From positions 1,550,001-1,614,000 of the forward strand of contig JAMXDE010000010.1 in the NCBI GenBank assembly GCA_026770025.1: a stretch of DNA of 64,000 nt. The letters are read 5' to 3'. Under the pieces are notes generated by a model. It was not told the DNA's origin, searched no databases, and saw only the letters and a program-made list of their open reading frames with translations. The stretch is from Craspedostauros australis. Its lineage: Eukaryota; Bacillariophyta; Bacillariophyceae; Mastogloiales; Achnanthaceae. Made by a program: the position numbers and the translations under genes. Below are positions 14,321 to 60,371 of the stretch, one piece after another; position 1 is the stretch's first letter, and every line of letters begins with the position of its first letter.

Positions 14321-15108
14321 GGTGTGACGAGGTTGTGAGCTTCTTCCTCTGCTTCTTCTGTTTCTTCTGCTTCTTCGTCTTGTGCTTTTTATGATTGTTG
14401 TAATTGTTGTTAACGTTGTTGTTGTGAATTCGAGTGCGATCAGTGTGACTTCTGGTCGCAGTGATGATTGTGAGGGTAGCGGCAACGGCGGCGACGATGA
14501 GGAAGGTGGCCGTCAGTATTCCGTTCTGGTTGGAGGTCGCATGGGGACACGCAACGAGGAAAGAGATGACCTGTTGTGCTCTCGGCATCAGTTGCGGGTT
14601 CTTCGTGTGAGGTTGTGTGGTTGTTGTTGTGCGGATGAGTGATGTCTTGTGTCATGTGGGTCGCAGGTTTGGGATACGTTGAGTCCATTCAGTCTAAGAC
14701 GCGTGTCGGACTCGACGGAATCGGAGATACCCACACAGACAAATTCCTATTTCCCACGGGTATTACACACCCGATATGCACTTTCACACAGCCACACAGA
14801 CATGATATCCGTTGGCGGTTGGAAAAATTGCGCGAAAGATTCCGGCAGAGATGAGGAAAGCCATTGTTTGTGCTGGGAAGCCTGATTGTTCATGTCGGCA
14901 GCTCTCTGCCGTTGCCATTGCCATTATTGTCATCTCTCTGCTGTTCTCCCCATTGTCAAATTGGTGAATGAGAGTGAAGCGAAATACGCATAGCAAGGTG
15001 TTGATCACGATAGAAGGGGTGTGTCAAGATTTGCGGTGAGACAAGCAAGATCAGGCGGTGGTAACCCAATCTTGCTGTCACTCTCCACCCGCCACATCTG
15101 CCAGCCTC
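14321..15108. other. Divergent intergenic region
   Basis: 788 bp between the divergent P5C synthase (-) and double-SET (+) genes; it should hold both promoters and 5' UTRs. The part next to P5CS is a Lys/Thr/Asn codon-like low-complexity run that could also be an N-terminal extension of P5CS. I see no separate gene. Confidence 0.5.
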
Positions 15109-18100
15109 ATGACGTTGACAATGAAAATCCCAATGACGATACACTACGCCGCGACGCTGTGCGTGGCGTGCATCCTCGTTTCCACAGCATGCGCGGCATC
15201 CACAACGAACGATCCGATGCAGCAATGCGGACTGTTCCTGGCCGAATCGTCCATCCCCAACGCCGGCTGGGGCGTCTACACGGGCGTGGATCGCGAGGAG
15301 GAGGACGTGATCGATCCGCTGGACATCGTCATTCAGATGGTGGACATGAAGCGGGTGGAGCAGATGCGCGTTCCCAAGATGGATCGACCGGCCGTCATCC
15401 CAAGATGCAAGCTGCGGGAGTACTACTGGTCGGCCGAGACGTCCTTCGCGACGTACGATGCGTTGGAGGAAGTGCAGAGCGTCGTGCCTGGCATGGGGAT
15501 GATGACCAACAGCCATCCCGGGCTCAACAATATCCACTACGAGGGTACCGACATCCGCAACTACGATGGCTTCGTGCTGGACGATGATTTAGCGGAGGAG
15601 GAGGAGGATGAGACTAGTATGGGTACGAATGGCGACAAGCAGCGCGACAGCGACCTGCAGCCACCGTATCGCAACAACGGGGCATACACGCACTACACCA
15701 AGCAGTCCTTTTCCGTGCAGACAAAAATACCGGCGGGACACGAGCTCTTTGTGGGCTACGGCGACGGCTGGTTTCGATCGCGGGGTTGGATGTTCGGCGA
15801 CGACTTTCCACTCGAAAACAACTTCCGAAGCGTGGATTCGCTCACGGCCGCCTTTCGGCAATGCGCGCAAGATGGCAAGGCAACGTACGCGTCCGACCTG
15901 TGGCAAGTCACGAAAGACATCCTGCAGGAATTGGAACTGCAACCGCGCACGCTGCGTGCCATGCCAGACAAGCACGAGGACGCCGTGTCCTTGGGTGGCA
16001 AATCGTCGGCATACCTCAAGGTGCCCAACGCCATTCGCCCGCTTGAGTGGTTATTCGACAATGGCTACTGCATGGACTTCATCCGACCGAAGGTGTCGAC
16101 GATTCCGCATGCTGGCTTGGGTGCATTCGCCAGGCTCGACCTGCCCAAGGGCACCGTCGTGTCACCCGCGCCGTTGGTTCCCATCTCACGGTACCACGTG
16201 GACATGTACATATTAGAGGGCACCACGAATGCCATACTATGGGAAGGCAACCAGCTGCTGCTCAACTACGCCTATGGACATCCTGATTCATCATTGCTGC
16301 TCTTTCCGTCAGGTTCGGCCGTCAACCTCATCAACCACGCGACGCACAACCAGACGACGCCGAACGTCAAGCTGCAATGGAGCAAGTTCACGGCGATGGA
16401 CCATGCCGACGATTTTGAAAGGGCGGTGGAGGATCTGCTGGAGAACAAGACGTCCCTCGTCATGGAGGTGGTTGCCATTCGGGATATCGCGGAAGGCGAG
16501 GAGATACTGCTGGATTACGGCGATGCGTGGCAGACGGCGTGGGATCAGCATCAGCAGCAGTTGCAACAGGAATCCGAAGAGGCTGGACGACAGCGGCAAC
16601 AAGAGGGAGGCTTGTGGATGAGTCACAAGGGAGCGTCGAAGACAACGAATTACACATCCGGCTGGACCTTCCATCAGCTGGAACCGTACAGGACACGGTC
16701 AGATCGTTATCCACGCGAAACGAAGTATCCAGACAACATCGAAGTTCGGTGCGTCGTACCTTTCGATGAAGATGCTGTTGTTCGATCATCATCAGATGAA
16801 GATAATGACGACGATGATGATGACGATGATGAATCAGACCAAGCTGATCCACAGCATGTGAGATGGAACTCGAATCTGCGATGGTGGGATCTCAGAGACT
16901 CGTTGGCATGCACTTTGCTTGTGAGCAAGGTTGACGACGAAGCTTCATCGGATGATCCATTTGGCGAGAGTTACGTGTACAAAGTCAAAGTCAAAGATGA
17001 CGATGGCAACATATGGTATGTGGACGGTGTCGAACCACGTGCCATCCACTTTGTGGATAGACCGTACACGGCACCGCAATACCAACGCGACGCATTCCGC
17101 AAGGAAGTCCAAATCCCCGACGCCTTGTTCCCGGCAAAGTGGAGGGACATCGGACAAGCGAAGTCCAAGTGTGGTCTGTACATGGCCGAGTCCTCCATCC
17201 CCAACAGCGGTCTGGGCATGTTCACGACACGCGAAATCCGCAAGGATACCAAAATATTCTCAGGCGACGTCGTGGTGGTTGTGGAGGACGTGGACGAGAA
17301 CATGAAGTTGCTGGAGCAAAAGACTGGTCGGAGGCCGCAATCCTGGGATGACTCTTCCTGGTTGCTGGATAGCTACTACTGGAACGCAGGCCATGGTCGA
17401 GGCACGCACGAGGCGGATGATGTGGAGTGCATCGTGCCAGGTATCGGCATGCTGGCGAATTCACACACAGGTGCGTCTGAACAATGTGTTGCATGTATCC
17501 GTCGTTTGATGGTTTGTTTGCTGTGTCCGCCATGTGTTCTGATCACGTACTCGTACCTACAACACAAATGATTGTGCAGGCCGTGAGATATTATGCCCCC
17601 TTTTCACATTTCATACCCTCCTCCTCCTGGAACTTGCAACTGCTTCACCTCCCGCTTGCCTCACGCTCATTTCTCTTCTCTCTGTATCTTCACACCCGCG
17701 TGAACGTCACAACCGACCGAACGACTCGTGTTTCTTCGTTTTGGTATCATGCAGGCCTCGTCAACGCGGCGATGAAGGCACCCACGCTGGTTCATCATCA
17801 TCATCACCACGATAATCCCGGATATGGCGCACACACGCATTTCCATGATGTGCACTATCTGGCCACGACCACCATAGAGGCAGGTGCTGAGATCTTTGAC
17901 GAATACGGCGACAGTTGGTTCATCAACCGCGAGCCCGTGCTGGGCATGATCCCCCTCAGTGCCGATTTTGCGCGCTCAGACACCTTCCTTGGGCGGTACT
18001 TGCGTGTGGCACGGCACGAAGACCGCCACGCTCGTGATTTGTGGAATGTCACCAGGAGTCTGCTGGAGGAATGGAATCACAGACCGCGCGTCAACATAGC

Positions 18101-30361: not shown

Positions 30362-30647
30362 TTGGTGAATGGTGCTGGTGTTGCCTGGTGAGTGGAGTTG
30401 TTGTTGGAGATGGCAACAAATGTGTATGGCGTTCGATGCGTGGGGTGCTGTGTTTGATTTTGTTGTGTTCTCCAACTCGCATCTTCCATCGACGCCCTTT
30501 CTCGGTGGATCCTGAAGTGCACATCGCGATGTGTTCCATGATCTTGCTTGGCACAGCAAAACGTTAACACTGTCACAGGGTGAGGCAAACTCGTGGGGGT
30601 GACATCACACACATGCTCTCCGCGCGTTGTTTGCTGCTAACAGTGGA

Positions 30648-30853
30648 TATCAGCACAAAATCGAATAGTGCTAAGTACGTTACTCCCGTAGCCCCCACTA
30701 TCTATAAATTTCACTTGTGTTCGGATCAGCAATCGCATCGCCTGTAGCTCAACGGTAGAGCACCAGTAATTCTAACTGAGATTCCGGGTTCGAATCCCGG
30801 CATGGTACTTTGCTTTTGCTCTCCCCTTGTGATTTTTCGATAGTGCTCTAATA
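30648..30853 (+). repeat. TRIM 5' LTR
   Basis: 206 bp, from TATCAGCACAAAATCG to GTGCTCTAATA; identical to the 3' copy at 31104-31309. Its middle is the tRNA-like sequence at 30739-30809. A TATAAA-like string (CTATCTATAAATTTC) lies about 45 bp upstream of the tRNA-like part and could serve Pol II or external Pol III initiation. Confidence 0.93.
30739..30809 (+). promoter_or_regulatory. tRNA-like sequence with Pol III A and B boxes (5' LTR)
   Basis: D arm GCTC-AACGGTA-GAGC, anticodon-arm-like CCAGT-AATTCTA-ACTGA, short variable loop and T arm CCGGG-TTCGAAT-CCCGG are all recognisable. The A box TAGCTCAACGG (30746-30756) and B box GGTTCGAATCC (30788-30798) match the Pol III consensus fully. The acceptor stem pairs poorly and the loop lacks U33, so it is unlikely to be a working tRNA; a tRNA-derived promoter fits better. 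TTTT at 30815-30818 is a ready Pol III terminator. Confidence 0.85.
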
Positions 30854-30869
30854 GATTAACAGTCGCAGC
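30854..30869 (+). other. TRIM primer-binding site
   Basis: GATTAACAGTCGCAGC directly abuts the 5' LTR. Its reverse complement contains CTGTTAA, the anticodon loop of tRNA-Asn(GTT), so first-strand synthesis may be primed by a tRNA-Asn fragment ending in the anticodon arm, a half-tRNA scheme like that known for copia. Confidence 0.8.
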
Positions 30870-31094
30870 TAGTTCTACATCGCTGAGTTAGGACAACCTT
30901 GCACAACACGCCTTCGTGGGCGCGTTGCGATCACCGGATTTCGACCCAGTCTCACACTTGTCTGCTACGGCAGCACTCCCACTTCGTCTGGCAGTATTAG
31001 CCACCCAGCAATGAGGGTGCCCCGATGTGGGGAGACGCGGGAAATGACAACTTTCCGTCATAGTGCTCTTGAGCAGGTGGTCCACGGTCGTAGC

Positions 31095-31103
31095 GTAGGG
31101 GAG
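31095..31103 (+). other. TRIM polypurine tract
   Basis: GTAGGGGAG lies immediately before the 3' LTR. The GGGGAG end is the same as in the copia elements at 31998-39170 and 45281-52467 (TTTGGGGAG). Confidence 0.8.
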
Positions 31104-31309
31104 TATCAGCACAAAATCGAATAGTGCTAAGTACGTTACTCCCGTAGCCCCCACTATCTATAAATTTCACTTGTGTTCGGATCAGCAATCGCATCGCCTG
31201 TAGCTCAACGGTAGAGCACCAGTAATTCTAACTGAGATTCCGGGTTCGAATCCCGGCATGGTACTTTGCTTTTGCTCTCCCCTTGTGATTTTTCGATAGT
31301 GCTCTAATA
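31104..31309 (+). repeat. TRIM 3' LTR
   Basis: 206 bp, identical base for base to the 5' LTR as far as I can compare. It is followed by the target-site duplication GTGGA. Confidence 0.93.
31195..31265 (+). promoter_or_regulatory. tRNA-like sequence with Pol III A and B boxes (3' LTR)
   Basis: Second copy of the tRNA-like sequence, 456 bp downstream of the first. The A box is at 31202-31212 and the B box at 31244-31254. A Pol III transcript started here would run toward host DNA unless stopped at the TTTT at 31271-31274. Confidence 0.85.
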
Positions 31310-31314
31310 GTGGA

Positions 31315-31997: not shown

Positions 31998-32620
31998 TGT
32001 TAGAACGAAATCAAGGATGGGATTCCGCACCGAAACGTAGAGTGATCAGATCGTTGTTGGGGTGAGGATGAGTGTTTGTTATTGAGTGTTATTCGTATGG
32101 TAGTATGAATGCAGGCGAGCTCACAAGATGGATTCTTGAGAACTGTGAGCATGAGAGAGACATGACAGGTCTCATGCAAATTGCAGGTGAAATTAACACG
32201 GAGACAACACGGCAAATGTGCGTGTTACTGCGTGAAGATGAGGTGCAAAAGTCAATGAACAAAACACCGCGATAGCCCGTGTTGCGAATTACGTCTTCTC
32301 ACGATGTTGCTAGTAGTACGATCACACGATTGATCGTATTCACTTGAGAAGGTCATGGCAAGATTCGCACGTGTCACACCCAAGATCCAAGTCTGTCCTG
32401 ATTGGGCAGATTGGCTCATCTTGGCAAGAAATCAATTTCCGCGACATTTTTGGATCTGTGATTGAGGGAAAACGATTCTTGCGACGCGAAATGCGACACA
32501 AATCTGACACAACGGATTTTCGACCAAAATTTCCGTTCGGAACGGAAAAGGTAAGAAAAGTGGAGATTTCTGATTGGTCGACGGGTGTCGCTATTGTTAG
32601 AGATTTAGCGTGCGCTAATA
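31998..32620 (-). repeat. Copia copy 1, 3' LTR
   Basis: 623 bp, identical to 38548-39170. On the element strand it runs from TATTAGCGCACGCTAAATC to CGTTCTAACA. It contains a palindrome TTCCGTTCCGAACGGAA, a CCAAT motif and an inverted repeat around CGATCAATCGTGTGATCG. Confidence 0.95.
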
Positions 32621-32629
32621 CTCCCCAAA
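32621..32629 (-). other. Copia copy 1, polypurine tract
   Basis: On the minus strand TTTGGGGAG stands directly before the 3' LTR, where plus-strand DNA synthesis of the element would start. Confidence 0.85.
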
Positions 32630-32644
32630 GCGTGTCCCGGACAT

Positions 32645-35600
32645 TCAGGTCTTGTAGGTCGGGGAAGAGGACTCGGTGTGCCCTTTCCAGAAGAGGATGG
32701 GCTTCACGAGGGGCCAGAAGACAGCCCATGGAAGGAACTTCGTCATCACGTCGGCGACGTTCTGCGTGCCGGGGATCTTGATGAAGTAGAGGATGCCAGC
32801 GGCGACAGCGGACCGGACGCGATGGTAGGCCAGTGCGTTGTGGCGCTTGGAGAGCATGCTCTTGGGGACCGTGGAGGAGGTGATGACGGACTGATTGTCA
32901 CCCAGCATCCAGCTGGGGCCGTCGATCGGAATGCCCATTTCACGAAGGGCAAGACGGAGGGAGATGATCTGCTCCGTAGCTTGACGGGCAGCGACGAACT
33001 CAGACCCGTAGGTGGCGGTCTCAACCGTGCCTTGACGCTTGGAGAACCATTCGATGGGTGTCTGGTTGACCAGATGGAGAGCACCGGTAGCGGATCTGCC
33101 AGTGACTTGGCAGTGGAGAAGGTTGGCGTCGACGAACGTGGTGGTTCGGACAGGTTTGCCTTTCGGCTCGGGGATGTCGTCCGGAATCTCCTCAGAGGTC
33201 TTCCCGTAGACGGAGTAGATCCAGTCATGGTTGGGAACCTCGTAGTGAAGATCGAAGCGGGGGACGCAGGTGCGGAAGCGGATGGCAGCATCAGGATGCT
33301 TGCGAAGATATCCGTAGATGCGCTTTGCGCGATCCAGATGACCTTGGCGAGGAGCTGAGCGGAAGCGTGCCAGCGTCATGACGGCGACAGAGATGTCAAA
33401 CCGTCCGAGGGAGATACACCACTGGAGTGCACCGATGAGCGACATGAACTTGCGTTTGTCGGTTTCGCTGAGTTCGGAAGAGGTGTCGAGCTCCGGACTG
33501 TCGGCCTTGTCGAGAGGGCAGCTGATCTTGCGGGGAAGCTCGCCGAACATGCGTTCGTAGTTCTCCATCATCCGCTTGATGTAGGATTGCGGGGAGAGCT
33601 TGAGAGTGCCGTCGGGATCACGGCCGAAGTCAGCACCGAGATGGTACTTGATAGGACCAACTCCCTTGAGCTGGTACCCGTACTTCGAAGAGAGGATGTC
33701 GAAGAAAGCCTTGGGGTCGGCCATCGTCGCGGTGAGGTCATCGACGTAGACGCAGACGTACTCCCAATGGGAGTTGGCGTCACGCATCCAGACGTCGGGA
33801 TCGGAGCGGCATTGGAGGAAACCCATGTCGCGAAGGGTGTCGGCGAGAGCCTCATGGAATCGGGCGCCCGATGTGCGCAGGCCGTAGAGTGCCTTGACTA
33901 TCTGCATGGTATGACCAGCGAAGTCACCGAATTCGTCGCCAGCGATGAAGCAGATGCGTTCTTGAGTGAAGGCCTCAAGATACGCATTGCCGATGTCTCC
34001 AACCCATGTTGGAATGCCGTTGAGTTCACCGGCGAGAAGGGAGAGGCGGAGAGAGCGAAGACTGACCACACCTGCATAGGATGCATCCTTGCAGGGGTCG
34101 GTGAGATGGCCACCAGCGACGCAGCGCGCCTTGTGGCGGAGGTCGTGCTTCACAGCGTAGACCCATTGGAGGCGGATCTTCTGGAAGCCGGAAGGGACAG
34201 GGGCGCCTTTGCCGAGAGACTTGAAGGTGTGGTACCCGAAGAGTTGGTCCATCTCCTTCTTCTCGGCATCGGCCCAGAGAGTGTTGCCGTTCTTATCGTC
34301 GAGTCGCATCGCTTCCTTGTGGTTGCGGGGGACTTGGACGCCGAACTGGAAGGTGGGAGCGTGGTTGAAGGTCTTCGATTTGTTGACCTGGCGCTCAAGA
34401 CGATTGGTGCGGATGGCGAGGCGCTTGAGGCGCTTCCAGCCAGGCTCGTCGAGCAGCTCGTGGCGGCGGCCGTAGGCAGCGCAAGAGACAGGATCATCCT
34501 GAATCATGATGGAGAGGGGTTCGGTGGAGGTGGAGCCGTCTCCCCATTTCACGATGACATTGAAACTGGATCCCTTGTAGGAGGGAGAGGAAGATGAGAG
34601 GGGACCCTCGTGTCCGATGATGGAGTCGAACTCCCACTTGGCGTCGGGGTCGTCGTTGTGCTCCTGTTGCCGTTCGATGATGTCGGCGAGCTCAACGTAG
34701 GAGATGAGGTCATGCGTCTCCCCATCGGCCAGTGCGAGTAGCATCTTGATACGTTGGTGGTTGGCTGCGTCAAGGTCATTGACCTTTTGCACCACCTCCG
34801 CTTTGACTTGCTGGCCATCCTTCTCGTGGATGAAGGTCATCCCAACGAGATCCTCGGGAGAGAACTTCGGGATGTGGACCTTGGCATTCCCCACTGTTTC
34901 AGGGTCTGTGCCGCGGCGGTCAGCCAGGATGGAATCGGCGAGGGAGTGTACGATGGGGTCGGAGTCAGGAGGGACGGAGATGTCGTCGTCTGGCTCCCCA
35001 TTCGCCACATTCATGGCATCAGAGCCATCGTCCTCCCCAACAATGGGGAAGGGGAAGTCCGCACGAAGATTGCGGGTGGCAGAGTCGTCGGCAGGTCGGA
35101 TGGCAGACCGAGGAAGAAGTCGTTGGGTCTCGTCGTCGAGGACCCAGAAGGTAAGATCATCGCCTTTGTGCAGGCAGGGACCGGCCCAGCGTCCACTGCG
35201 CTCCTTGGACTGACTGGGGAAGGTGGGGTTGTCAACCCGGTAGTAGACAGGCTGCCACCATCGGTAGGACAGGAACTTGGAGATGTCCGGTCGCTGTCCG
35301 AAGGCAGCTTGAAGGGGGGTGATGGAGCCAGCGGTGACCTGCGCGATGTGGTTGAAGAGATCAACCACATAGAGCGTGCAGATCAGCCAGAAGCGGTCGG
35401 GAGTACCCGTGCGATCCATCACACCGTTGGTTGTGCGTTTGATATCCTGGATCCGGCGTTCCGCGCCGTTCTGATGCTGGTGTTCCGGCTCACTCTGGTG
35501 ATCACGGATGTGATACTGCCGGAGGATCTCCATAACCTTGTTACCGATCTGTGCCTTGGCGTTGTCGGACATCAGTAGGTCAGGAGCCCCGTGGCGTCGG

Positions 35601-38227
35601 ATGAAGTCACGGAGAGTGTCGGAGATGCGGCTCTCGGATGGCATGGGAAAGCCGGCCGTGAACCGAGAGTCGAGGGCGACGTACACCTGAAGCATGGTGC
35701 AGCCGCCATGGCCGGGAACCCCGTCGTCGTGAGCAGGGGTATCGGAGAAGAGCGTATCCATCGCAACCGTCTCATGAAGACGGTCGACGTTGGCCGCTGG
35801 GAACCGAGACTTGAAATGCTTGCGCATGGAGAAGCGCTCGGCGGTACGGTACCACTGGGAGGTGCACCGAAGAGTGTCGCGAACGCGACGAGCTGGTATC
35901 CAGCCGAAGTGGGGTCGGAGAGCCTCGTAGTCGGCAGGCTTGCGAGTGGCAATGATGCTGCCCGGGTTGTCAGCGATGTCGGCTTGGCGAGCACCAGTGT
36001 AGGCCGTGAGAACGGTAGAGTTGTTCTCGCGGCGCTGGAGTGCTGCGGCGTCATCATCGTCGACGTCGTCGAGGTTCATCTCCTGGTCGAGGGAAGAAGG
36101 GTCCCATTCGTCGTCCGCTGTGAAGTCAACATGCGGATACTGGTCGAGTTCAGAGCGGGTGGGCTTGGCCATGTCCATGTAGGACAGGCCTTGCCGGACA
36201 GCCAGTGGGATGATGTGGCCTCCTGGTGTGATGATGGTCTGGCGACCTCCAGGGAGATTCCGTGGGCGCTCGTTGACATCCATTCCGAAGGCACCAAGCT
36301 GGTTGGATGAATGGATGGTCTTGCCCTTTCCGTAGAGCGCATATTGGTGGAATTTACCAATGATGGGCCCTTCGGTGGTCTGGATGAGACCAGCAACCGT
36401 ACCGATGTCGAGGTTGGCGATGGCAGAGTCACCAATGCCACTGACGTCGGCGGTGTGTCCTGTCTTGCAGAGAACGAGGACGTCATCGCCAGCCAGGCCA
36501 CCATTGGCACCGCTGTCGACGAGAGAGCCAGAGTGGTCCTTGACAAGCTTGTTGAAGCTGTACCGGACCACCGTGGAGTTGGCAAGGCGCCAGGTCTGGC
36601 CCTTGTAGACCAGTTGAGGAGTATCGTCAGACGAAGAGGTGGACTTGGTCTGCGCGAGAAGGCGATCGATGGCAGTGGACTGGTCACCAGCCTTGGAAGA
36701 GTCCGTGTTGCCAGCGGACGGGGTTGCGGAAGGAGTGTCGGTGGTGCCCGAAGATGTGGCAGCGTTGTTGGCAGCTCGGTGGGAGTCAGCCTTGCCCTTG
36801 CCCTTGTTCTTGCGCCACTTTCCCTTTGCTTCGAGGAATGCCTTGCGTTGGTCCTTGGACATCTCACGCCATTCATCATTGGGGATGGAACGACGGTCGT
36901 CCTTGGCATAGTCCTTGCCATTGCCTTTGCCAGCAGAGCCGCCGGTCTTGGCATTGTTGACCTTGCGCCGAGATGTGGTGCGAGGCTGGTTGGCGTCGAG
37001 GGATTGTGCCTCATCTCGAACGAACTCGAGGAGGTCTTCGAAGGAGACACCAACCTTGATGAAGCCGCGAGATTGCTTGTGACGTTGGCGGGAGTTGGAC
37101 TTCACGTTGGTGTAGGCCCGAGTCAAGTCAACATCGGGACCGATGGCGGTGCGCAACCATTGCTGCTTGACCGCCTCATCGACACATGCATCATCGAGCT
37201 CTTCGATGTCATCGAGCTTGGTTTCCCAGGCATCGAGGAATTGCTCGCGGGTCTTGGTCCAAGTCTGGTCCAGACGGAAGGCGACGATGGTGTCTCTGTA
37301 TTTGATGGACAGAGTCTCGCCGACGACACCACTGGTGTAGCTGTCAACGAGGTCGGCGTAGGCCGCACGGCCATCGCAGGACTTCTTGTAGGCACGGATG
37401 ATGCGCCGACTCTTGGAAGTCTTGACATGCTCAGTGAGCACGGCGAAGAGGTAGCGATTCTGGCTCGCGAAGAAGGCCTCGTCCTTGGGTGCTGGCATGA
37501 AGTCCATGTCAAGATGGTGGTTGAGTCCATGAGAGAAGGAGAGAGTCTCGAAGGTCCGCATGAAGGTGAGGAAGTGCTTGTCGTCCTTCAGTGTTGGGAG
37601 CGACAGGCTCTCTCGCTTGGTTGCCTTGCTGAACTCCTTGACGTAGTCAGCCGGTAGCTCCATGGCATGGACACCTTGGAAGTTGGAAGAGGGTGCCATG
37701 GATGGAGTCACAGGTGGTTGCGGGAAGGCAGGATCAGGCACCGAAGCCGAAGGATCGAATGCGAAGTTCACATGCGGAGGTTCTTCAGGCACCGGACGGA
37801 ATGCGGATGCTGGAGTGGTGTGGTGGCCCATGCCCATCGGAGACGGAATGGGAGAGCTTGCAGTCGAATGCGAGTGCGAAGACGGAAGGGAAGGGTTGTT
37901 CTGCTCAGCTGTGAACGCCATGAACGAGGTACGATCGAGATCGTTCCAAGTGTTGTCGTCGAGGATGGCTTGGGTGAGATACCACTTGCCAAGGTTGAGG
38001 ATCTTGCGGATGTGGTTCACTCCGAGTACGGCGACGATGGTCTCGCCATCATCGATCTCATCGCGAAGTTGGAAGCTGCGAAGATCATCTTCGGTGAGCG
38101 AGACAAGGTCAAGAGGGCTGACGATGTCCGCATGGGCGATGATGTCGCGAGGAGTGGAGTCCGAAGGGATGCCGATGACACCGAGGATGTGATCCAAGGT
38201 GGCGAGGTCCATCTCAGGAGTCGACAT
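32645..38227 (-). CDS. Gag-Pol polyprotein of copia copy 1
   Basis: 1860 residues in one uninterrupted frame, so no frameshift is needed between Gag and Pol. Order: Gag-like region with no CCHC zinc knuckle that I can see (Lys/Gly-rich stretch near 470-500), aspartic protease with DSGANGG (D571), integrase core with D824, D888 and E923 (the last two 35 apart), reverse transcriptase with YVDD (Y1494-D1497), and RNase H starting near FVDAN (D1700) with YGSEFVAAR and GDNQSV. Positions were computed on the same-length copy at 46231-51813. All catalytic residues appear present. The first Met follows a 320-bp leader after the LTR. Confidence 0.96.
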   Translation of the reverse strand: MSTPEMDLATLDHILGVIGIPSDSTPRDIIAHADIVSPLDLVSLTEDDLRSFQLRDEIDDGETIVAVLGVNHIRKILNLGKWYLTQAILDDNTWNDLDRTSFMAFTAEQNNPSLPSSHSHSTASSPIPSPMGMGHHTTPASAFRPVPEEPPHVNFAFDPSASVPDPAFPQPPVTPSMAPSSNFQGVHAMELPADYVKEFSKATKRESLSLPTLKDDKHFLTFMRTFETLSFSHGLNHHLDMDFMPAPKDEAFFASQNRYLFAVLTEHVKTSKSRRIIRAYKKSCDGRAAYADLVDSYTSGVVGETLSIKYRDTIVAFRLDQTWTKTREQFLDAWETKLDDIEELDDACVDEAVKQQWLRTAIGPDVDLTRAYTNVKSNSRQRHKQSRGFIKVGVSFEDLLEFVRDEAQSLDANQPRTTSRRKVNNAKTGGSAGKGNGKDYAKDDRRSIPNDEWREMSKDQRKAFLEAKGKWRKNKGKGKADSHRAANNAATSSGTTDTPSATPSAGNTDSSKAGDQSTAIDRLLAQTKSTSSSDDTPQLVYKGQTWRLANSTVVRYSFNKLVKDHSGSLVDSGANGGLAGDDVLVLCKTGHTADVSGIGDSAIANLDIGTVAGLIQTTEGPIIGKFHQYALYGKGKTIHSSNQLGAFGMDVNERPRNLPGGRQTIITPGGHIIPLAVRQGLSYMDMAKPTRSELDQYPHVDFTADDEWDPSSLDQEMNLDDVDDDDAAALQRRENNSTVLTAYTGARQADIADNPGSIIATRKPADYEALRPHFGWIPARRVRDTLRCTSQWYRTAERFSMRKHFKSRFPAANVDRLHETVAMDTLFSDTPAHDDGVPGHGGCTMLQVYVALDSRFTAGFPMPSESRISDTLRDFIRRHGAPDLLMSDNAKAQIGNKVMEILRQYHIRDHQSEPEHQHQNGAERRIQDIKRTTNGVMDRTGTPDRFWLICTLYVVDLFNHIAQVTAGSITPLQAAFGQRPDISKFLSYRWWQPVYYRVDNPTFPSQSKERSGRWAGPCLHKGDDLTFWVLDDETQRLLPRSAIRPADDSATRNLRADFPFPIVGEDDGSDAMNVANGEPDDDISVPPDSDPIVHSLADSILADRRGTDPETVGNAKVHIPKFSPEDLVGMTFIHEKDGQQVKAEVVQKVNDLDAANHQRIKMLLALADGETHDLISYVELADIIERQQEHNDDPDAKWEFDSIIGHEGPLSSSSPSYKGSSFNVIVKWGDGSTSTEPLSIMIQDDPVSCAAYGRRHELLDEPGWKRLKRLAIRTNRLERQVNKSKTFNHAPTFQFGVQVPRNHKEAMRLDDKNGNTLWADAEKKEMDQLFGYHTFKSLGKGAPVPSGFQKIRLQWVYAVKHDLRHKARCVAGGHLTDPCKDASYAGVVSLRSLRLSLLAGELNGIPTWVGDIGNAYLEAFTQERICFIAGDEFGDFAGHTMQIVKALYGLRTSGARFHEALADTLRDMGFLQCRSDPDVWMRDANSHWEYVCVYVDDLTATMADPKAFFDILSSKYGYQLKGVGPIKYHLGADFGRDPDGTLKLSPQSYIKRMMENYERMFGELPRKISCPLDKADSPELDTSSELSETDKRKFMSLIGALQWCISLGRFDISVAVMTLARFRSAPRQGHLDRAKRIYGYLRKHPDAAIRFRTCVPRFDLHYEVPNHDWIYSVYGKTSEEIPDDIPEPKGKPVRTTTFVDANLLHCQVTGRSATGALHLVNQTPIEWFSKRQGTVETATYGSEFVAARQATEQIISLRLALREMGIPIDGPSWMLGDNQSVITSSTVPKSMLSKRHNALAYHRVRSAVAAGILYFIKIPGTQNVADVMTKFLPWAVFWPLVKPILFWKGHTESSSPTYKT

Positions 38228-38530
38228 GATTGGCGATGGATGGATGGAGAGAGTGGATGCGGATGCTGGAGGCTGAAGGATAGCTGAGGCTGGGGTGCAC
38301 TGACTGAATCGTCTTCTGGTGCGGGAGGGTGCTGCAGGAAGTCTTGGATGGCTGAGTGGGAAGGCCCAAACTCAGCAGAGGGACCGAAAGGAGGGCGTTC
38401 TGCGGATGCAAGAAAGCCGAAGGGAAGCCGAAATCACGTCGTCACGTGATGGAAGGTGAAGGGATCGCCCGTGGATGGACGAGGGATGAAGGATGGATGG
38501 ATTGTCACGCAATCAATTCAGTAGGTGAAA

Positions 38531-38547
38531 GCTTGCGACTGTTAATC
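38531..38547 (-). other. Copia copy 1, primer-binding site
   Basis: On the minus strand GATTAACAGTCGCAAGC directly follows the 5' LTR. As in the TRIM, its reverse complement contains CTGTTAA, the tRNA-Asn anticodon loop. Confidence 0.82.
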
Positions 38548-39170
38548 TGTTAGAACGAAATCAAGGATGGGATTCCGCACCGAAACGTAGAGTGATCAGA
38601 TCGTTGTTGGGGTGAGGATGAGTGTTTGTTATTGAGTGTTATTCGTATGGTAGTATGAATGCAGGCGAGCTCACAAGATGGATTCTTGAGAACTGTGAGC
38701 ATGAGAGAGACATGACAGGTCTCATGCAAATTGCAGGTGAAATTAACACGGAGACAACACGGCAAATGTGCGTGTTACTGCGTGAAGATGAGGTGCAAAA
38801 GTCAATGAACAAAACACCGCGATAGCCCGTGTTGCGAATTACGTCTTCTCACGATGTTGCTAGTAGTACGATCACACGATTGATCGTATTCACTTGAGAA
38901 GGTCATGGCAAGATTCGCACGTGTCACACCCAAGATCCAAGTCTGTCCTGATTGGGCAGATTGGCTCATCTTGGCAAGAAATCAATTTCCGCGACATTTT
39001 TGGATCTGTGATTGAGGGAAAACGATTCTTGCGACGCGAAATGCGACACAAATCTGACACAACGGATTTTCGACCAAAATTTCCGTTCGGAACGGAAAAG
39101 GTAAGAAAAGTGGAGATTTCTGATTGGTCGACGGGTGTCGCTATTGTTAGAGATTTAGCGTGCGCTAATA
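38548..39170 (-). repeat. Copia copy 1, 5' LTR
   Basis: 623 bp; no difference from the 3' LTR was found by eye. It is followed on the plus strand by the target-site duplication CAGCA. Confidence 0.95.
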
Positions 39171-39452
39171 CAGCAAACGCGGGGGTTCTACAATTATGTA
39201 TTCACGTTTGGGTGCTGTTCTTTGTCATCCAAGATCTGTGATAAAAGCGGTCTTTCACACTGCAGAAAAGCATGTCTGGCTCCTTCAATGATAGATCCTC
39301 CCACTCGTGTCACCTTCGGTATGCCTAGTCCTTCCTGTACAGAAAGGATTCATCCAAGAGAGCAGGGGGCACATGATGGCAGCGCCAACATTTATCGTTT
39401 GACAATCAGTACATCACAGCCATGGCTTTGCATGGGTACAAGATAGTTTCAA

Positions 39453-40183: not shown

Positions 40184-40240
40184 AATCAAAAGAGCACGTT
40201 GCAAACAAAAGAATGTGTCATTCTCAACCATCCACAATAA

Positions 40241-41107
40241 GAATTGTTCCACCACAGATGGGATTGTTTGCAAACTTTACTGTTCACAAACCAGGTATTG
40301 TGAGTTTGCGTATGTATGCCAAAACAAAGTTCGGACTGTTCCATGAAGAACAACAATCCACGACAAGAATTGTTCCACCACAGATGGGATTGTTCGCAAA
40401 CTTTACTGTTCACAAACCAGGCATTGTGAGTTTGCGTATGTATGCCAAAACAAAGTTCGGACTGTTCCATGAAGAACAACAATCCACGACAAGAGTTTTT
40501 CCACCACAGATGGGACTGTTCGCAGACTTTACTGTTCACAAACCAGGCATTGTGAGTTTGCGTATGTATGCCAAAACAAAGTTTGGACTGTTCCGCAAAG
40601 AACAACAATCCATGACAAGAGTTTTTCCACCACAGATGGGACTGTTCGCAGACTTTACTGTTCACAAACCAGGCATTGTGAGTTTGCGTATGTATGCCAA
40701 AACAAAGTTCGGACTGTTCCATGAAGAACAACAATCCACGACAAGAATTTTTCCACCACAGATGGGATTGTTCGCAAACTTTACTGTTTACAAACCAGGC
40801 ATTGTGAGTTTGCGTATGTATGCGAAAACAAAGTTCGGACTGTTCCGCAAAGAATAACAATCCACAACAAGAGTTTTTTGCCACAGATGGGACTATTCGC
40901 AAACTTTACTGTTCACAAACCAGGCATTGTGAGTTTGCGTATGTATGCCAAAACAAAGTTTGGACTGTTCCATGAAGAACAACAATCCACGACAAGAGTT
41001 TTTCCACCACAGATGGGATTGTTCGCAACTTTACTGTTCACAAACCAGGCATTGTGAGTTTGCGTATGTATGCGAAAACAAAGTTCGGACTGTTCCGCGA
41101 AGAATGA
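40241..41107. repeat. 126-bp minisatellite, seven units
   Basis: Units begin at 40241, 40367, 40493, 40619, 40745, 40871 and 40995: a strict 126-bp period for the first six, then small deletions. 126 is a multiple of three, and both strands stay open over five or more units: plus 40174-40857 reads a 42-residue repeat (PPQMGLFANFTVHKPGIVS...), minus 40902-40186 another. Unit differences are mostly single bases. I treat it as satellite DNA, not a gene, because neither frame has a plausible start and the last units break the frame. Confidence 0.9.
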
Positions 41108-41627: not shown

Positions 41628-42725
41628 AATAAAGTTACCCAAAGATTGTAATTGGCGGATAATAAAGTTACGCAAACATCATAATTGACGGAAAATAAAG
41701 TTACGCAAAGATGGTAATTAGCGGATAATAAAGTTATGCAAAGATAGTAATTGGCGGATAATAAAGTTACACAAACATCATAATTGACGGAAAATAAAGT
41801 TACGCAAAGATGGTAATTGGCGGATAATAAGTTATGCAAAGATAGTAATTGGCAAATAATAAAGTTACACAAACATCGTAATTGGCGGATAATAAAGTTA
41901 CACAAACATCATAATTGGCAAATAATAAAGTTACGCAAAGATGGTAATTGGCGGAAAATAAAGTTACACAAACATCATAATTGGCAAATAATAAAGTTAC
42001 ACAAACATCGTAATTGGCGGATAATAAAGTTACACAAACATCATAATTGGCAAATAATAAAGTTACGCAAAGATGGTAATTAGCGGATAATAAAGTTATG
42101 CAAAGATAGTAATTGGCGGATAATAAAGTTACACAAACATCATAATTGACGGAAAATAAAGTTACGCAAAGATGGTAATTAGCGGATAATAAAGTTATGC
42201 AAAGATAGTAATTGGCGGATAATAAAGTTACACAAAGATGGTAATTGGCGGATAATAAAGTTATGCAAAGATAGTAATTGGCAAATAATAAAGTTACGCA
42301 AACATCGTAATTGGCGGATAATAAAGTTACACAAACATCATAATTGGCAAATAATAAAGTTACACAAACATCGTAATTGGCGGATAATAAAGTTACACAA
42401 ACATCATAATTGGCAAATAATAAAGTTACGCAAAGATGGTAATTGGCGGATAATAAAGTTACGCAAACATCGTAATTGGCGGAAAATAAAGTTACCAAAC
42501 ATCGTAATTGGCGGATAATAAAGTTACACAAACATCGAAATTGGCAGATAACAAAGTTGTGCAAACATCGTAATTGGCGGATAACAAAGTTACGCAAACA
42601 TCGTAATTGGCGGATAACAAAGTTACGCAAACATCGTAATTGGCGGAAAATAAAGTTACCAAACATCGTAATTGGCAGAAAATAAAGTTACCAAACATCG
42701 TAATTGGCAGAAAATAAAGTTGGTG
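41628..42725. repeat. 33-bp minisatellite, about 33 units
   Basis: Unit AATAAAGTTACGCAAACATC followed by GTAATTGGCGGAT, period 33 bp, about 1.1 kb in all. Variants alternate in recurring blocks (CATCATAATTGAC, GATGGTAATTAGC, GATAGTAATTGGC), which points to higher-order duplication of blocks of units. A period divisible by three gives a minus-strand frame of 288 codons with an 11-residue repeat (SANYDVCVTLL), most likely a by-product of the period. Confidence 0.92.
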
Positions 42726-45280: not shown

Positions 45281-45910
45281 TATTAGCGCACGCTAAATCT
45301 CTAACAATAGCGACACCCGTCGACCAATCAGAAATCTTCACTTTTCTTACCTTTTCCGTTCCGAACGGAAATTTTGGTCGAAAATCCGTTGTGTCAGATT
45401 TGTGTCGCATTTCGCGTCGCAAGAATCGTTTTCCCTCAATCACAGATCCAAAAATGTCGTGGAAATTGATTTCTTGCCAAGATGAGCCAATCTGCCCAAT
45501 CAGGACAGACTTGGATCTTGGGTGTGACACGTGCGAATCTTGCCCTGACCTTCTCAAGTGAATACGATCAATCGTGTGATCGTACTACTAGCAACATCGT
45601 GAGAAGACGTAATTTACAACACGGGCTATCGCGGTGTTTTGTTCATTGACTTTTGCACCTCATCTTCACGCAGTAACACGCACATTTGTCGTGTTGTCTC
45701 CGTGTTATTTTTACTTGCAATTGCATGAGATCATGTCATGCCTCTCTCATGCTCACAGTTCCAAGAGGACAATCTTGTGAGCTCGACAGCATTCCTACTA
45801 CCATACGAATAACACAGTAAACAAACACTCTCCTCACCAACAACAACGACTTGATCACTCTACGTTCTCGGTGCGGTATCTTCAAACCCATCTACGATTA
45901 CGTTCTGACA
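45281..45910 (+). repeat. Copia copy 2, 5' LTR
   Basis: 630 bp from TATTAGCGCACGCTAAATC to GATTACGTTCTGACA. CCAATCAG lies near the start, and the palindrome TTCCGTTCCGAACGGAA further on may be a protein-binding or structural site. Confidence 0.95.
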
Positions 45911-45927
45911 GATTAACAGTCGCAAGC
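45911..45927 (+). other. Copia copy 2, primer-binding site
   Basis: GATTAACAGTCGCAAGC directly after the 5' LTR, complementary to the anticodon arm of tRNA-Asn (CTGTTAA loop), the same as in copy 1 and one base different from the TRIM. Confidence 0.82.
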
Positions 45928-46230
45928 TTTCACCTACTGAATTGATTGCGTGACAATCCATCCATCCTTCATCCCTCGTTCACCCACGAGCGATCCCTTC
46001 ATCTTCCATCACGTGACGACGTGATTTCGGCTTCCCTTCGGCTTTCTCGCATCCGCAGAACGCCCCCCTTTCGGTTCCTCTGCTGAGTTCGGGCCTTCCC
46101 ACTCAGCCATCCAAGACTTCCTGCAGCACCCTCCCGCACCAGAAGACGATTCAGTCAGTGCACCCCAGCCTCAGCTATCCTTCAGCCTCCAGCATCCGCA
46201 TCCACTCTCTCCATCCATCCATCGCCAATC

Positions 46231-49200
46231 ATGTCGACTCCTGAGATGGACCTCGCCACCTTGGATCACATCCTCGGTGTCATCGGCATCCCTTTGGACT
46301 CCACTCCTCGCGACATCATCGCCCATGCGGACATCGTCAGCCCTCTTGACCTTGTCTCGCTCACCGAAGATGATCTTCGCAGCTTCCAACTTCGTGATGA
46401 TACCGAAGATGGCGAAACCATCGTCGCCGTACTCGGAGTGAACCACATCCGCAAGATTCTCAACCTTGGCAAGTGGTATCTCACCCAAGCCATCCTCGAC
46501 GACAACACCTGGAACGATCTCGATCGTACCTCGTTCATGGCGTTCACAGCTGAGCAGAACAACCCTTCCCTTCCGTCTTCGAACTCGCATTCGACTGCAA
46601 GCTCTCCCATTCCATCTCCGATGGGCATGGGTCATCACACCACTCCAGCATCCGCATTCCGTCCGGTGCCTGAAGAACCTCCGCATGTGAACTTCGCATT
46701 CGATCCTTCGGCTTCGGTGCCTGATCCTGCCTACCCGCAACCACCTGTGACTCCATCCATGGCACCCTCTTCCAACTTCCAAGGTGTCCATGCCATGGAG
46801 CTACCGGCTGACTACGTCAAGGAGTTCAGCAAGGCAACCAAACGAGAGAGCCTGTCGCTCCCGACACTGAAGGACGACAAGCACTTCCTCACCTTCATGC
46901 GGACCTTCGAGACTCTTTCCTTCTCTCATGGACTCAACCACCATCTCGACATGGACTTCATGCCAGCACCCAAGGACGAGGCCTTCTTCGCGAGCCAGAA
47001 TCGCTACCTCTTCGCCGTGCTCACTGAGCATGTCAAGACTTCCAAGAGTCGGCGCATCATCCGCGCCTACAAGAAGTCTTGCGATGGCCGTGCGGCCTAT
47101 GCCGACCTCGTTGACAGCTACACCAGTGGCGTCGTCGGCGAGACTCTGTCCATCAAATACAGAGACACCATCGTCGCCTTCCGTCTGGACCAGACTTGGA
47201 CCAAGACCCGCGAGCAATTCCTCGATGCTTGGGAAACCAAGCTCGACGACATCGAGGAGCTCGATGATGCATGCGTTGACGAGGCAGTCAAGCAGCAATG
47301 GTTGCGCACCGCCATCGGTCCCGATGTCGACCTGACTCGGGCCTACACCAACGTCAAGTCCAACTCCCGCCAACGTCACAAGCAATCTCGCGGCTTCATC
47401 AAGGTTGGTGTCTCCTTCGAAGACCTCCTTGAGTTCGTTCGAGATGAGGCACAATCCCTTGACGCCAACCAGCCTCGCACCACATCTCGGCGCAAGGTCA
47501 ACAACGCCAAGACCAGCGGCTCTGCTGGCAAAGGCAATGGCAAGGACTACGCCAAGGACGACCGTCGTTCCATCCCCAATGATGAATGGCGTGAGATGTC
47601 CAAGGACCAACGCAAGGCATTCCTCGAAGCAAAGGGAAAGTGGCGCAAGAACAAGGGCAAGGGCAAGGCTGACTCCCACCGAGCTGCCAACAACGCTGCC
47701 ACATCTTCGGGTACCACCGACACTCCTTCCGCAACTCCATCCGCTGGCAACACGGACTCTTCCAAGGCTGGTGACCAGTCCACTGCCATCGATCGCCTTC
47801 TCGCACAGACCAAGTCCACCTCTTCGTCTGACGATACTCCTCAACTGGTCTACAAGGGCCAGACCTGGCGCCTTGCCAACTCCACGGTGGTCCGGTACAG
47901 CTTCAACAAGCTTGTCAAGGACCACTCTGGCTCTCTCGTCGACAGCGGTGCCAATGGTGGCCTGGCTGGCGATGACGTCCTCGTTCTCTGCAAGACAGGA
48001 CACACCGCCGACGTCAGTGGCATTGGTGACTCTGCCATCGCCAACCTCGACATCGGTACGGTTGCCGGTCTCATCCAGACCACCGAAGGGCCCATCATTG
48101 GTAAATTCCACCAATACGCGCTCTACGGAAAGGGCAAGACCATCCATTCATCCAACCAGCTTGGTGCCTTCGGAATGGATGTCAACGAACGCCCACGGAA
48201 TCTCCCTGGAGGTCGCCAGACCATCATCACACCAGGAGGCCACATCATCCCACTGGCTGTCCGGCAAGGCCTGTCCTACATGGACATGGCCAAGCCTACC
48301 CGCTCCGAACTCGACGAGTATCCACATGTCGACTTCACCGCGGACGACGAATGGGACCCTTCTTCCCTCGACCAGGAGATGAACCTCGACGACGTCGATG
48401 ATGATGACGCCGCAGCACTCCAGCGCCGCGAGAACAACTCTACAGTTCTCACGGCCTACACTGGTGCTCGCCAAGCTGACATCGCTGACAATCCGGGCAG
48501 CATCATTGCCACTCGCAAGCCTGCTGACTACGAGGCCCTCCGCCCCCACTTCGGCTGGATACCAGCTCGTCGCGTTCGCGACACTCTTCGGTGCACCTCC
48601 CAGTGGTACCGTACCGCCGAGCGCTTCTCCATGCGCAAGCATTTCAAGTCTCGGTTCCCAGCGGCCAACGTCGACCGTCTCCATGAGACGGTTGCGATGG
48701 ATACGCTCTTCTCCGATACCCCTGCTCACGACGACGGGGTTCCCGGCCATGGCGGCTGCACCATGCTTCAGGTGTACGTCGCCCTCGACTCTCGGTTCAC
48801 GGCCGGCTTTCCCATGCCATCCGAGAGCCGCATCTCCGACACTCTCCGTGACTTCATCCGACGCCACGGGGCTCCCGACCTACTGATGTCCGACAACGCC
48901 AAGGCGCAGATCGGTAACAAGGTTATGGAGATCCTCCGGCAGTATCACATCCGTGATCACCAGAGTGAGCCGGAACATCAACACCAGAACGGCGCGGAAC
49001 GCCGGATCCAGGATATCAAACGCACAACCAACGGTGTGATGGATCGCACGGGTACTCCCGACCGCTTCTGGCTGATCTGCACGCTCTATGTGGTTGATCT
49101 CTTCAATCACATCGCGCAGGTCACCGCTGGCTCCATCACCCCCCTCCAAGCCGCCTTCGGACAGCGACCGGACATCTCCAAGTTCCTGTCCTACCGATGG

Positions 49201-51813: not shown

Positions 51814-51828
51814 ATGTCCGGGACACGC

Positions 51829-51837
51829 TTTGGGGAG
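51829..51837 (+). other. Copia copy 2, polypurine tract
   Basis: TTTGGGGAG immediately before the 3' LTR. Confidence 0.85.
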
Positions 51838-52467
51838 TATTAGCGCACGCTAAATCTCTAACAATAGCGACACCCGTCGACCAATCAGAAATCTTCACTT
51901 TTCTTACCTTTTCCGTTCCGAACGGAAATTTTGGTCGAAAATCCGTTGTGTCAGATTTGTGTCGCATTTCGCGTCGCAAGAATCGTTTTCCCTCAATCAC
52001 AGATCCAAAAATGTCGTGGAAATTGATTTCTTGCCAAGATGAGCCAATCTGCCCAATCAGGACAGACTTGGATCTTGGGTGTGACACGTGCGAATCTTGC
52101 CCTGACCTTCTCAAGTGAATACGATCAATCGTGTGATCGTACTACTAGCAACATCGTGAGAAGACGTAATTTACAACACGGGCTATCGCGGTGTTTTGTT
52201 CATTGACTTTTGCACCTCATCTTCACGCAGTAACACGCACATTTGTCGTGTTGTCTCCGTGTTATTTTTACTTGCAATTGCATGAGATCATGTCATGCCT
52301 CTCTCATGCTCACAGTTCCAAGAGGACAATCTTGTGAGCTCGACAGCATTCCTACTACCATACGAATAACACAGTAAACAAACACTCTCCTCACCAACAA
52401 CAACGACTTGATCACTCTACGTTCTCGGTGCGGTATCTTCAAACCCATCTACGATTACGTTCTGACA
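51838..52467 (+). repeat. Copia copy 2, 3' LTR
   Basis: 630 bp, matching 45281-45910 with no difference seen by eye. Confidence 0.95.
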
Positions 52468-52511
52468 CCCACACCAGCACCCACACCAGCACCCACACCA
52501 GCACCCACACC
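52468..52511 (+). repeat. Host-gene fragment between two retrotransposons: 12-bp repeat
   Basis: 44 bp of CCCACACCAGCA units, coding Pro-Thr-Pro-Ala. It begins with the second CCCAC target duplication of copia copy 2 and ends with the first CACACC duplication of the next element. It is the only host sequence left between the two insertions. Confidence 0.92.
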
Positions 52512-53306
52512 TGTTGGCAAGTTCCGCTCACGGTAACCTACGATCGTGGAAGATGGTATTGGTTGATAGTCGTTCGTTTGCTATTTCATTACGTTGGCAC
52601 TCCGATACTCTCGGTGTCCGTTCGTTCTCTTGCCCGATGCTCTCGGCGCTTCAATCTGTTTCGTAGATTCGGTCTCCGACTATGAGTCGGTACGCGAGAT
52701 CCTCTCTCGCTCCTCTCTGTATTCTCTCTCTCTCTCTCTCTCAACATCGTGTGCTCGTGCTACACGATCCTCCGTGTTTGATGCGTGCTCCGCATCCGAC
52801 ACTCCGTTCATTCAGTACTGGCTTCTACTCCATGAGTACTTACCATTTGAAGTTCACCTTCAGTATCCATGATCTTCATGAGTCATCGTATCTTCGCCTC
52901 CTGCTCTAACTTGGAGACAGCTGTCGACGTGGTGACATGTTGACATCCTGTCGACGTCAGTAGGCGTCCTTCTGCTCTCCAGATGTCACGTTCCATTGGT
53001 GATGCAGTAGTCTGTCAGATGATATCGTCATCTGAGGTTTAGTTGGGAAGTACCTCGAGATTCTCTTGGTACCATTGATGCATGGACGGACGATTTTCTG
53101 ATTCTTCCAGAAATCGTTATTTGCAAATTTCCTCCAGAAATCTTGCCCCTTTTTGTGTGTTCCATTTCCCCTGTAATTCTGACGAATCACAGCATACTAT
53201 CGACACGAGTATAGTTATACCGTCCAAGTGCGTATGAGAGAATAGCGGGTGAACGATGCACATATACACGTACATCTTGATATATACTCACATGTACATC
53301 TCGACA
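52512..53306 (-). repeat. Second-family copia, 3' LTR
   Basis: 795 bp, including a (CT)n run near 52725-52742. The minus strand shows AGGAAGGG just before it (53307-53314), a polypurine tract. Confidence 0.94.
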
Positions 53307-53326
53307 CCCTTCCTGTGTGCATTCGG

Positions 53327-59494: not shown

Positions 59495-59576
59495 TCAGCC
59501 TGCTGCTCTTGAATGATGTTCGTCTTCCTCGCACGATACGATTCGCGGGCTCGCCCTGATCTATCGTTTATAAACG

Positions 59577-60371
59577 TGTTGGCAAGTTCCGCTCACGGTA
59601 ACCTACGATCGTGGAAGATGGTATTGGTTGATAGTCGTTCGTTTGCTATTTCATTACGTTGGCACTCCGATACTCTCGGTGTCTGTTCGTTCTCTTGCCC
59701 GATGCTCTCGGCGCTTCAATCTGTTTCGTAGATTCGGTCTCCGACTATGAGTCGGTACGCGAGATCCTCTCTCGCTCCTCTCTGTATTCTCTCTCTCTCT
59801 CTCTCTCAACATCGTGTGCTCGTGCTACACGATCCTCCGTGTTTGATGCGTGCTCCGCATCCGACACTCCGTTCATTCAGTACTGGCTTCTACTCCATGA
59901 GTACTTACCATTTGAAGTTCACCTTCAGTATCCATGATCTTCATGAGTCATCGTATCTTCGCCTCCTGCTCTAACTTGGAGACAGCTGTCGACGTGGTGA
60001 CATGTTGACATCCTGTTGACGTCAGTAGGCGTCCTTCTGCTCTCCAGATGTCACGTTCCATTGGTGATGCAGTAGTCTGTCAGATGATATCGTCATCTGA
60101 GGTTTAGTTGGGAAGTACCTCGAGATTCTCTTGGTACCATTGATGCATGGACGGACGATTTTCTGATTCTTCCAGAAATCGTTATTTGCAAATTTCCTCC
60201 AGAAATCTTGCCCCTTTTTGTGTGTTCCATTTCCCCTGTAATTCTGACAAATCACAGCATACTATCGACACGAGTATAGTTATACCGTCCAAGTGCGTAT
60301 GAGAGAATAGCGGGTGAACGATGCACATATACACGTACATCTTGATATATACTCACATGTACATCTCGACA
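59577..60371 (-). repeat. Second-family copia, 5' LTR
   Basis: 795 bp, three apparent differences from the 3' LTR. Directly inside it, the minus strand reads CGTTTATAAACGATAGA, the likely primer-binding site, which differs from that of the CoDi-like family. Confidence 0.94.

Follow-up and report, generated by a model that had tools for sequence, protein, structure and literature searches.

The element at 30648-31309 of the window (the whole 64-kb stretch of DNA analysed) is proposed, with a probability of about 85%, to be a non-autonomous Helenus-type TRIM (TRIMp3) in which a decayed tRNA gene within the LTR serves as the promoter, and which Copia elements resident in the genome mobilise in trans. 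The 662-bp element is bounded by two 206-bp LTRs (TATCAGCACA...GCTCTAATA) at 30648-30853 and 31104-31309, which were 100% identical in the self-comparison, and is flanked by the target-site duplication GTGGA at 30643-30647 and 31310-31314. All internal features are on the plus strand. The 250-bp internal region (30854-31103) begins with the primer-binding site (PBS) GATTAACAGTCGCA at 30854-30867 and ends with the polypurine tract (PPT) GGGGAG at 31098-31103, directly before the 3′ LTR as in Copia elements. No protein was found in this region, and no stop-to-stop ORF of at least 200 aa was present in the element. Each LTR contains a tRNA-like block (30739-30808 and 31195-31264), which in the 5′ LTR comprises an A box TAGCTCAACGG (30745-30755) and a B box GGTTCGAATCC (30787-30797), both intact, followed at 30809-30817 by TTTGCTTTT, a probable Pol III terminator. 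A second T run, TTTTT, lies at 30833-30837, and a TATA-like CTATAAAT at 30702-30709, 30-36 bp upstream of the block, may be either a Pol II element or an upstream Pol III element. The initial annotation had described this same arrangement, including the boxes with a T run behind them, and every part of it was recovered at its coordinates, as was the lack of a protein at the 200-aa cut-off.

The internal region was found at 21 loci in the 74.8-Mb genome. Eighteen of these were identified by script as uninterrupted full-length copies of 661-664 bp, every one with an LTR pair and a 5-bp target duplication (in a few copies the script included a chance sixth matching base), which bears out the earlier suggestion of LTR-style integration. 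The two LTRs were identical in 16 of the 18 copies and matched at 199/207 and 200/206 positions, ungapped, in the other two; most full-length insertions therefore look recent. The remaining three loci are a copy split by an insertion on contig C13, a composite on C40 and a chimera on C5. The split copy (C13:1591130-1597188; L020/L022) is interrupted by 5.4 kb with inverted ends of about 25 bp (junctions read by eye), and CGTGG is present on both of its outer flanks.

A 22-base LTR word outside the tRNA block matched 114 genome places (at most 3 mismatches) and a 20-base A-box word 127 places (at most 2 mismatches), against 1 for each reversed control. Dozens of solo LTRs are present in the genome, and 5-bp duplications flanked 10/10 in the first batch. 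The second batch of 59 places, made up of 52 of the 114 LTR-word places and 7 with the A-box word only, yielded a complete LTR in 52, of which 37 had a 5-bp duplication at the edge and 15 did not; 32 duplications remained once same-flank copies were removed, and mismatched flank pairings gave 3/1806. The LTR 3′ ends, mostly AATA or TTCA, separate subfamilies. Five LTRs (L135, L137, L144, L145 and L146) lie in different places with nearly identical flanks and are probably carried inside another repeat. For the alignment, 85 LTRs were collected and 9 with the same flanks as another were dropped, leaving 76, to which two elements contribute both their LTRs; 7 places where the LTR was incomplete or interrupted were kept out. 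The A box was intact in 66 of the 76, the B box in 69 and both in 62, using patterns longer than the Helenus ones. The initial annotation had held that a single genomic copy, or an eroded tRNA-like part elsewhere, would tell against its reading, and neither proved to be the case.

Helenus elements (TRIMp3; Kojima 2024, PMC10886601) are TRIMs with tRNA-like LTRs from fungi, animals and Selaginella. The main text of that paper describes them as short LTR elements of 311-1263 bp without protein, with a PBS similar to that of Gypsy or Copia helpers; 5-bp duplications are given for the fungal and plant members, and an anticodon-arm PBS for most fungal members with Copia helpers, tRNA-Asn-GTT being among the primers. 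The present element agrees with this description in its size and lack of an ORF of at least 200 aa, in the tRNA-like sequence of both LTRs (the Helenus A-box motifs TRGCY and YGG and B-box motif GGTTC falling within the 66 and 69 intact boxes), and in the PBS and PPT that bound the internal region. It further agrees in its solo LTRs, in duplications that are 5 bp in 18/18 copies where 4 or 5 bp are expected, and in an anticodon-arm PBS, which is shared here with the presumably autonomous Copia elements A and B. The tRNA-like block is, by eye, not complementary to the PBS, again as in Helenus. The likeness is one of description rather than of sequence alignment and, unlike in Helenus, the host is a diatom. 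The element is Helenus-type, and is new to diatoms as far as the literature search reached: no diatom Helenus/TRIMp3 or other diatom TRIM was among the literature matches listed (most subscription papers and Repbase being outside the scope), and the words diatom and stramenopile are absent from the main text of PMC10886601. The earlier statement that no TRIM with a tRNA-type promoter had been described was thus incorrect, Helenus being exactly such a group, while the statement that none came from a diatom agrees with the matches listed.

Three other systems were compared. The plant TRIM Cassandra likewise has a Pol III-type promoter and terminator in its LTR, but this promoter is derived from 5S rRNA rather than tRNA and the PBS is TGGTATCAGAGC, as described in PMC7215508; the Rfam gathering scan of the window gave two tRNA matches only, with no 5S rRNA in the LTRs. 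The diatom Copia elements (CoDi) are, by description, of the helper type, being Copia elements with LTRs of 153-844 bp, and they differ from the TRIM in being protein-coding and full-length (PMC2806351, the main text of which contains neither tRNA nor non-autonomous as words). Exact-pattern scans of viral and bacterial/archaeal collections gave no match. The A/B-box promoter-type sequence also resembles that of tRNA-derived SINEs, which have such a promoter internally, lack LTRs, PBS and PPT, and are integrated by LINE machinery. The LTR pair, PBS, PPT and fixed 5-bp duplications of the present element do not fit target-primed insertion of this kind.

The PBS is one tie to Copia; it is exactly complementary to tRNA-Asn(GTT) over nucleotides 27-40 and corresponds to a half-tRNA primer. 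An extended PBS-complement word occurred at five genome loci, all read as tRNA-Asn and two drawn so by ARAGORN. The PBS complement itself was matched 293 times in the genome, its reversed control not once, and 178 matches remained when CTNNNA was required in front; among the first 100 listed of these 178, the preceding bases were CTAACA (43), CTATCA (23), CTATTA (18), CTAATA (11), CTTTCA (2), CTGACA (2) and CTCACA (1). The same PBS is found in two Copia elements with intact ORFs at 0.7 and 14 kb from the TRIM, element A (about 31998-39171, minus strand) and element B (45281-52467, plus strand), which are candidate helpers. Each has a 1908-aa ORF with RVT_2 and an identical LTR pair (624 and 630 bp aligned), and the two belong to one family in opposite orientation, with 97% identity over 7195 aligned bases. 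Besides the PBS, both have the PPT GGGGAG and the LTR start TAT in common with the TRIM. From their open frames, A and B are presumed to be autonomous. In a Copia relative (L167), the LTR end GCTCTAATA and the PBS are the same as in the TRIM, with 23 bases identical. No Rfam tRNA was found at E 0.5 in L165 (CTATTA), L166 (CTATCA) or L167 (CTAATA), 331 bases each. At the level of sequence, the evidence tying this TRIM to its likely Copia helpers appears unusually direct.

Elements A and B are flanked by TGCTG and CCCAC duplications, respectively, as read by eye. A third Copia element of a different family (52509-60372) adjoins element B; its 799-bp LTRs are 99.5% identical, and its 2055-aa frame contains gag, BBD and RVT_2 domains. 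Tandem repeat arrays were also revealed by self-comparison of the window, at 40225-41104, 41628-42721 and 60864-61305. A SET-domain protein is encoded at 15040-17571; among 120 listed of its 182 homologues, most of them without an organism name, the named ones are from diatoms such as Phaeodactylum, Seminavis, Cylindrotheca and Nitzschia, in agreement with a diatom host.

At three loci (on C40, C5 and C14), TRIM sequence meets Copia-type sequence where LTR and PBS adjoin, with a different family involved each time. The order at C40:418210-426665 is TRIM LTR, PBS, non-TRIM sequence, PPT, 710-bp Copia-X LTR, PBS, TRIM internal region and TRIM LTR, with about 4.8 kb of the middle outside the sequence examined. 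Towards its 3′ end the non-TRIM sequence resembles Copia pol (71% to Copia A/B), TCCAG is present on both sides of the composite, and its outer LTRs differ at positions 204 and 205 only. Copia-X is abundant, 40 matches having been scored among 212 candidates, and on both C32 and C22 it forms LTR-like pairs spaced by about 7.7 kb. At the C5 locus (L021), which was seen without its left end, an LTR end with 73-77% likeness to the Copia A/B one is joined to the TRIM internal region and 3′ LTR; this chimera was deduced to be older since its TRIM part is just 83% like the window copy. At C14:1572067, a TRIM LTR for which no target duplication was found precedes internal sequence of a third family. 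This sequence is 98% like a copy located 9.6 kb further along, and the LTR belonging to that copy ends CTATCA. The family was called Copia-type from its PBS and from a 63-aa open stretch that is 34% like the Copia B N terminus over 47 aa (E 1e-4) and also resembles the N terminus of P0002, a 1885-aa protein with RVT_2.

These loci are read as recombinants of the TRIM with its likely helpers, formed at the LTR/PBS junction. Such physical Copia/TRIM chimeras are not described for Helenus in the parts of PMC10886601 consulted. Template switching in shared particles would be their simplest, if unproven, cause. Not far short of an even prospect is that the joins are instead products of DNA recombination, through Copia circles or ectopically at a short common sequence, in which case they would be silent on co-packaging. 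This is favored by the PBS being the sequence common to both sides of the junctions and by the C40 composite keeping the outer LTRs of one TRIM and a single duplication, but the common stretch is short (14-16 bp) and three different families take part. Furthermore, the 5′ TRIM LTR at C40 ends ATCA like Copia-X while its partner ends AATA, so the junctions are not simple reciprocals, an argument for template switching that is weakened by a solo TRIM LTR (L121) also ending ATCA. A more extended proposal, doubtful as a whole, is that the TRIM and several Copia families swap parts during reverse transcription of co-packaged RNAs at their common half-tRNA-Asn PBS. TRIM LTRs with their Pol III promoter would be grafted before Copia internal regions, as at the C40 and C14 junctions, giving hybrids with a tRNA-type promoter in which the four-T stop might act as a switch between an ~80-nt and a full-length RNA.

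Which polymerase makes the genomic RNA was considered from the terminator. A four-T stop follows the tRNA-like block of each LTR at a distance of six bases, and CTTTTG was present in 74/76 aligned LTRs. The surrounding TTTGCTTTT was invariant in 76/76 and is the longest invariant stretch in the alignment; a run as long was obtained anywhere in 721/20000 shuffles and at that place in 8/20000, the window edges for this test having been set after TTTGCTTTT had been seen. The first downstream T run of the tRNA genes of this genome was 4-6 in 22 of 25 (near-identical copies included), exactly 4 in 12 and missing in 3. The T runs of the LTR match these, and the LTR consequently has the look of a tRNA transcription unit complete with terminator. 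Since the same T run is present in the 5′ LTR, most Pol III transcripts would be expected to end at around 80 nt, and either Pol III must read through or Pol II makes the template.

The latter reading, in which Pol II makes the genomic RNA from the TATA-like box of an otherwise ordinary TRIM with a tRNA relic, is a serious contender, if on balance the lesser one; the tRNA-like block would be a passenger, or the source of a short Pol III RNA ending at the T run. In its favor are CTATAAAT within the LTR and the four-T runs in both LTRs of all 18 uninterrupted full-length copies, and the helper Copia elements are themselves presumably Pol II-driven. It is also in keeping with three of the four diverged LTR loci scanned no longer scoring as tRNA: L021 gave 30.5 bits, while L117, L130 and L148 had no Rfam tRNA match at E 0.5. 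Against it, most of the 76 aligned LTRs keep the A and B boxes and every one keeps the T run. The TATA-like box is no mark of Pol II, because TATAW was also found upstream of 5 of 20 real tRNA genes. In the view of PMC10886601, TRIMs of this layout have several origins; Pol III transcription of Helenus is presented there as an inference only.

The tRNA-like block gave an Rfam tRNA match (RF00005) of 34.8 bits, above the gathering score of 29, in both LTRs (30743-30802 and 31199-31258); ARAGORN with the bacterial code found no tRNA gene in the 64-kb window. Among the 76 aligned LTRs, the D stem was paired in 302/304 cells and the T stem in 367/380, whereas the acceptor stem was largely unpaired (284/532) and the first anticodon-stem pair was formed in only 2 LTRs. 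From the unpaired acceptor stem, the block was deduced to be a promoter relic rather than a working tRNA. That the LTR holds a functional tRNA gene, with the family spreading working tRNAs, is very improbable: the Rfam score and the D-stem pairing are in its favor, but the acceptor and anticodon stems are not, and ARAGORN, relaxed setting included, called a tRNA in just 10/76 LTRs (four Glu and one SeC among the five printed). An assembly artefact, the other doubt raised initially, or a chance repeat is effectively ruled out: the copies are numerous, lie on separate contigs and differ in their target duplications, from which it follows that the repeats are not an assembly duplication.

Selection to maintain the tRNA-like block is weakly supported by the comparison of variable non-CpG sites, which make up 24/59 in the block and 72/120 elsewhere in the LTR (Fisher P 0.017). 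No difference between block and rest was seen for shared versus private changes (non-CpG P 1.0), or at all sites for changes in at least 4 copies versus single ones (P 0.33). CpG positions were more variable than others (21/22 variable), as expected if cytosine methylation acts on TRIM copies. Apparent compensatory changes in the T stem (138/152 and 139/151) were rejected because both pairs lie in CpG dinucleotides and one-sided changes outnumber two-sided ones (8 vs 2, and 11 vs 4 plus 2 non-pairs). Two loci, L110 and L122, were likewise rejected as pre-capture ancestors without the tRNA block, since each is interrupted at LTR position 58, the two insertions being related and 86% alike over 462 bases. 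The block is present beyond the insertion at the L110 locus (L156, C28:3900-5150); the 1461 bases of the L122 locus (L157, C14:1338900-1340360) end before it would come. The L156 insertion has inverted ends CCCTTCATGACCCA and is, from these, probably a DNA transposon. For the parent tRNA, the best of the 22 loci compared were a tRNA-Arg on contig C90 (L161; 56) and tRNA-Arg(TCT) (L089; 53), scores too similar to choose between them, with many further tRNA genes lying outside the comparison.

For the Helenus-type TRIM mobilised by Copia, the following life cycle is proposed. Transcription would start near the tRNA-like block of the 5′ LTR and end at the T run behind that of the 3′ LTR, and R would accordingly be about the tRNA-like block. 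The RNA may be packaged in a Copia particle, where the 5′ half of tRNA-Asn(GTT), with its end at nucleotide 40 as the complementarity predicts, would prime reverse transcription, and the second strand would be primed at GGGGAG. Copia integrase would insert the product, generating the 5-bp duplications observed. Recombination between LTRs would leave solo LTRs, and template switching between co-packaged RNAs could yield the TRIM/Copia joins.

With these results, TRIMs with tRNA-like LTRs gain a diatom host, in line with the multiple origins proposed for them in the literature. At 662 bp, and with recent activity indicated by identical LTR pairs, candidate helpers nearby and natural chimeras, the element is a tractable case, in which the passage of a Pol III transcript past the stop in the first LTR is directly testable.
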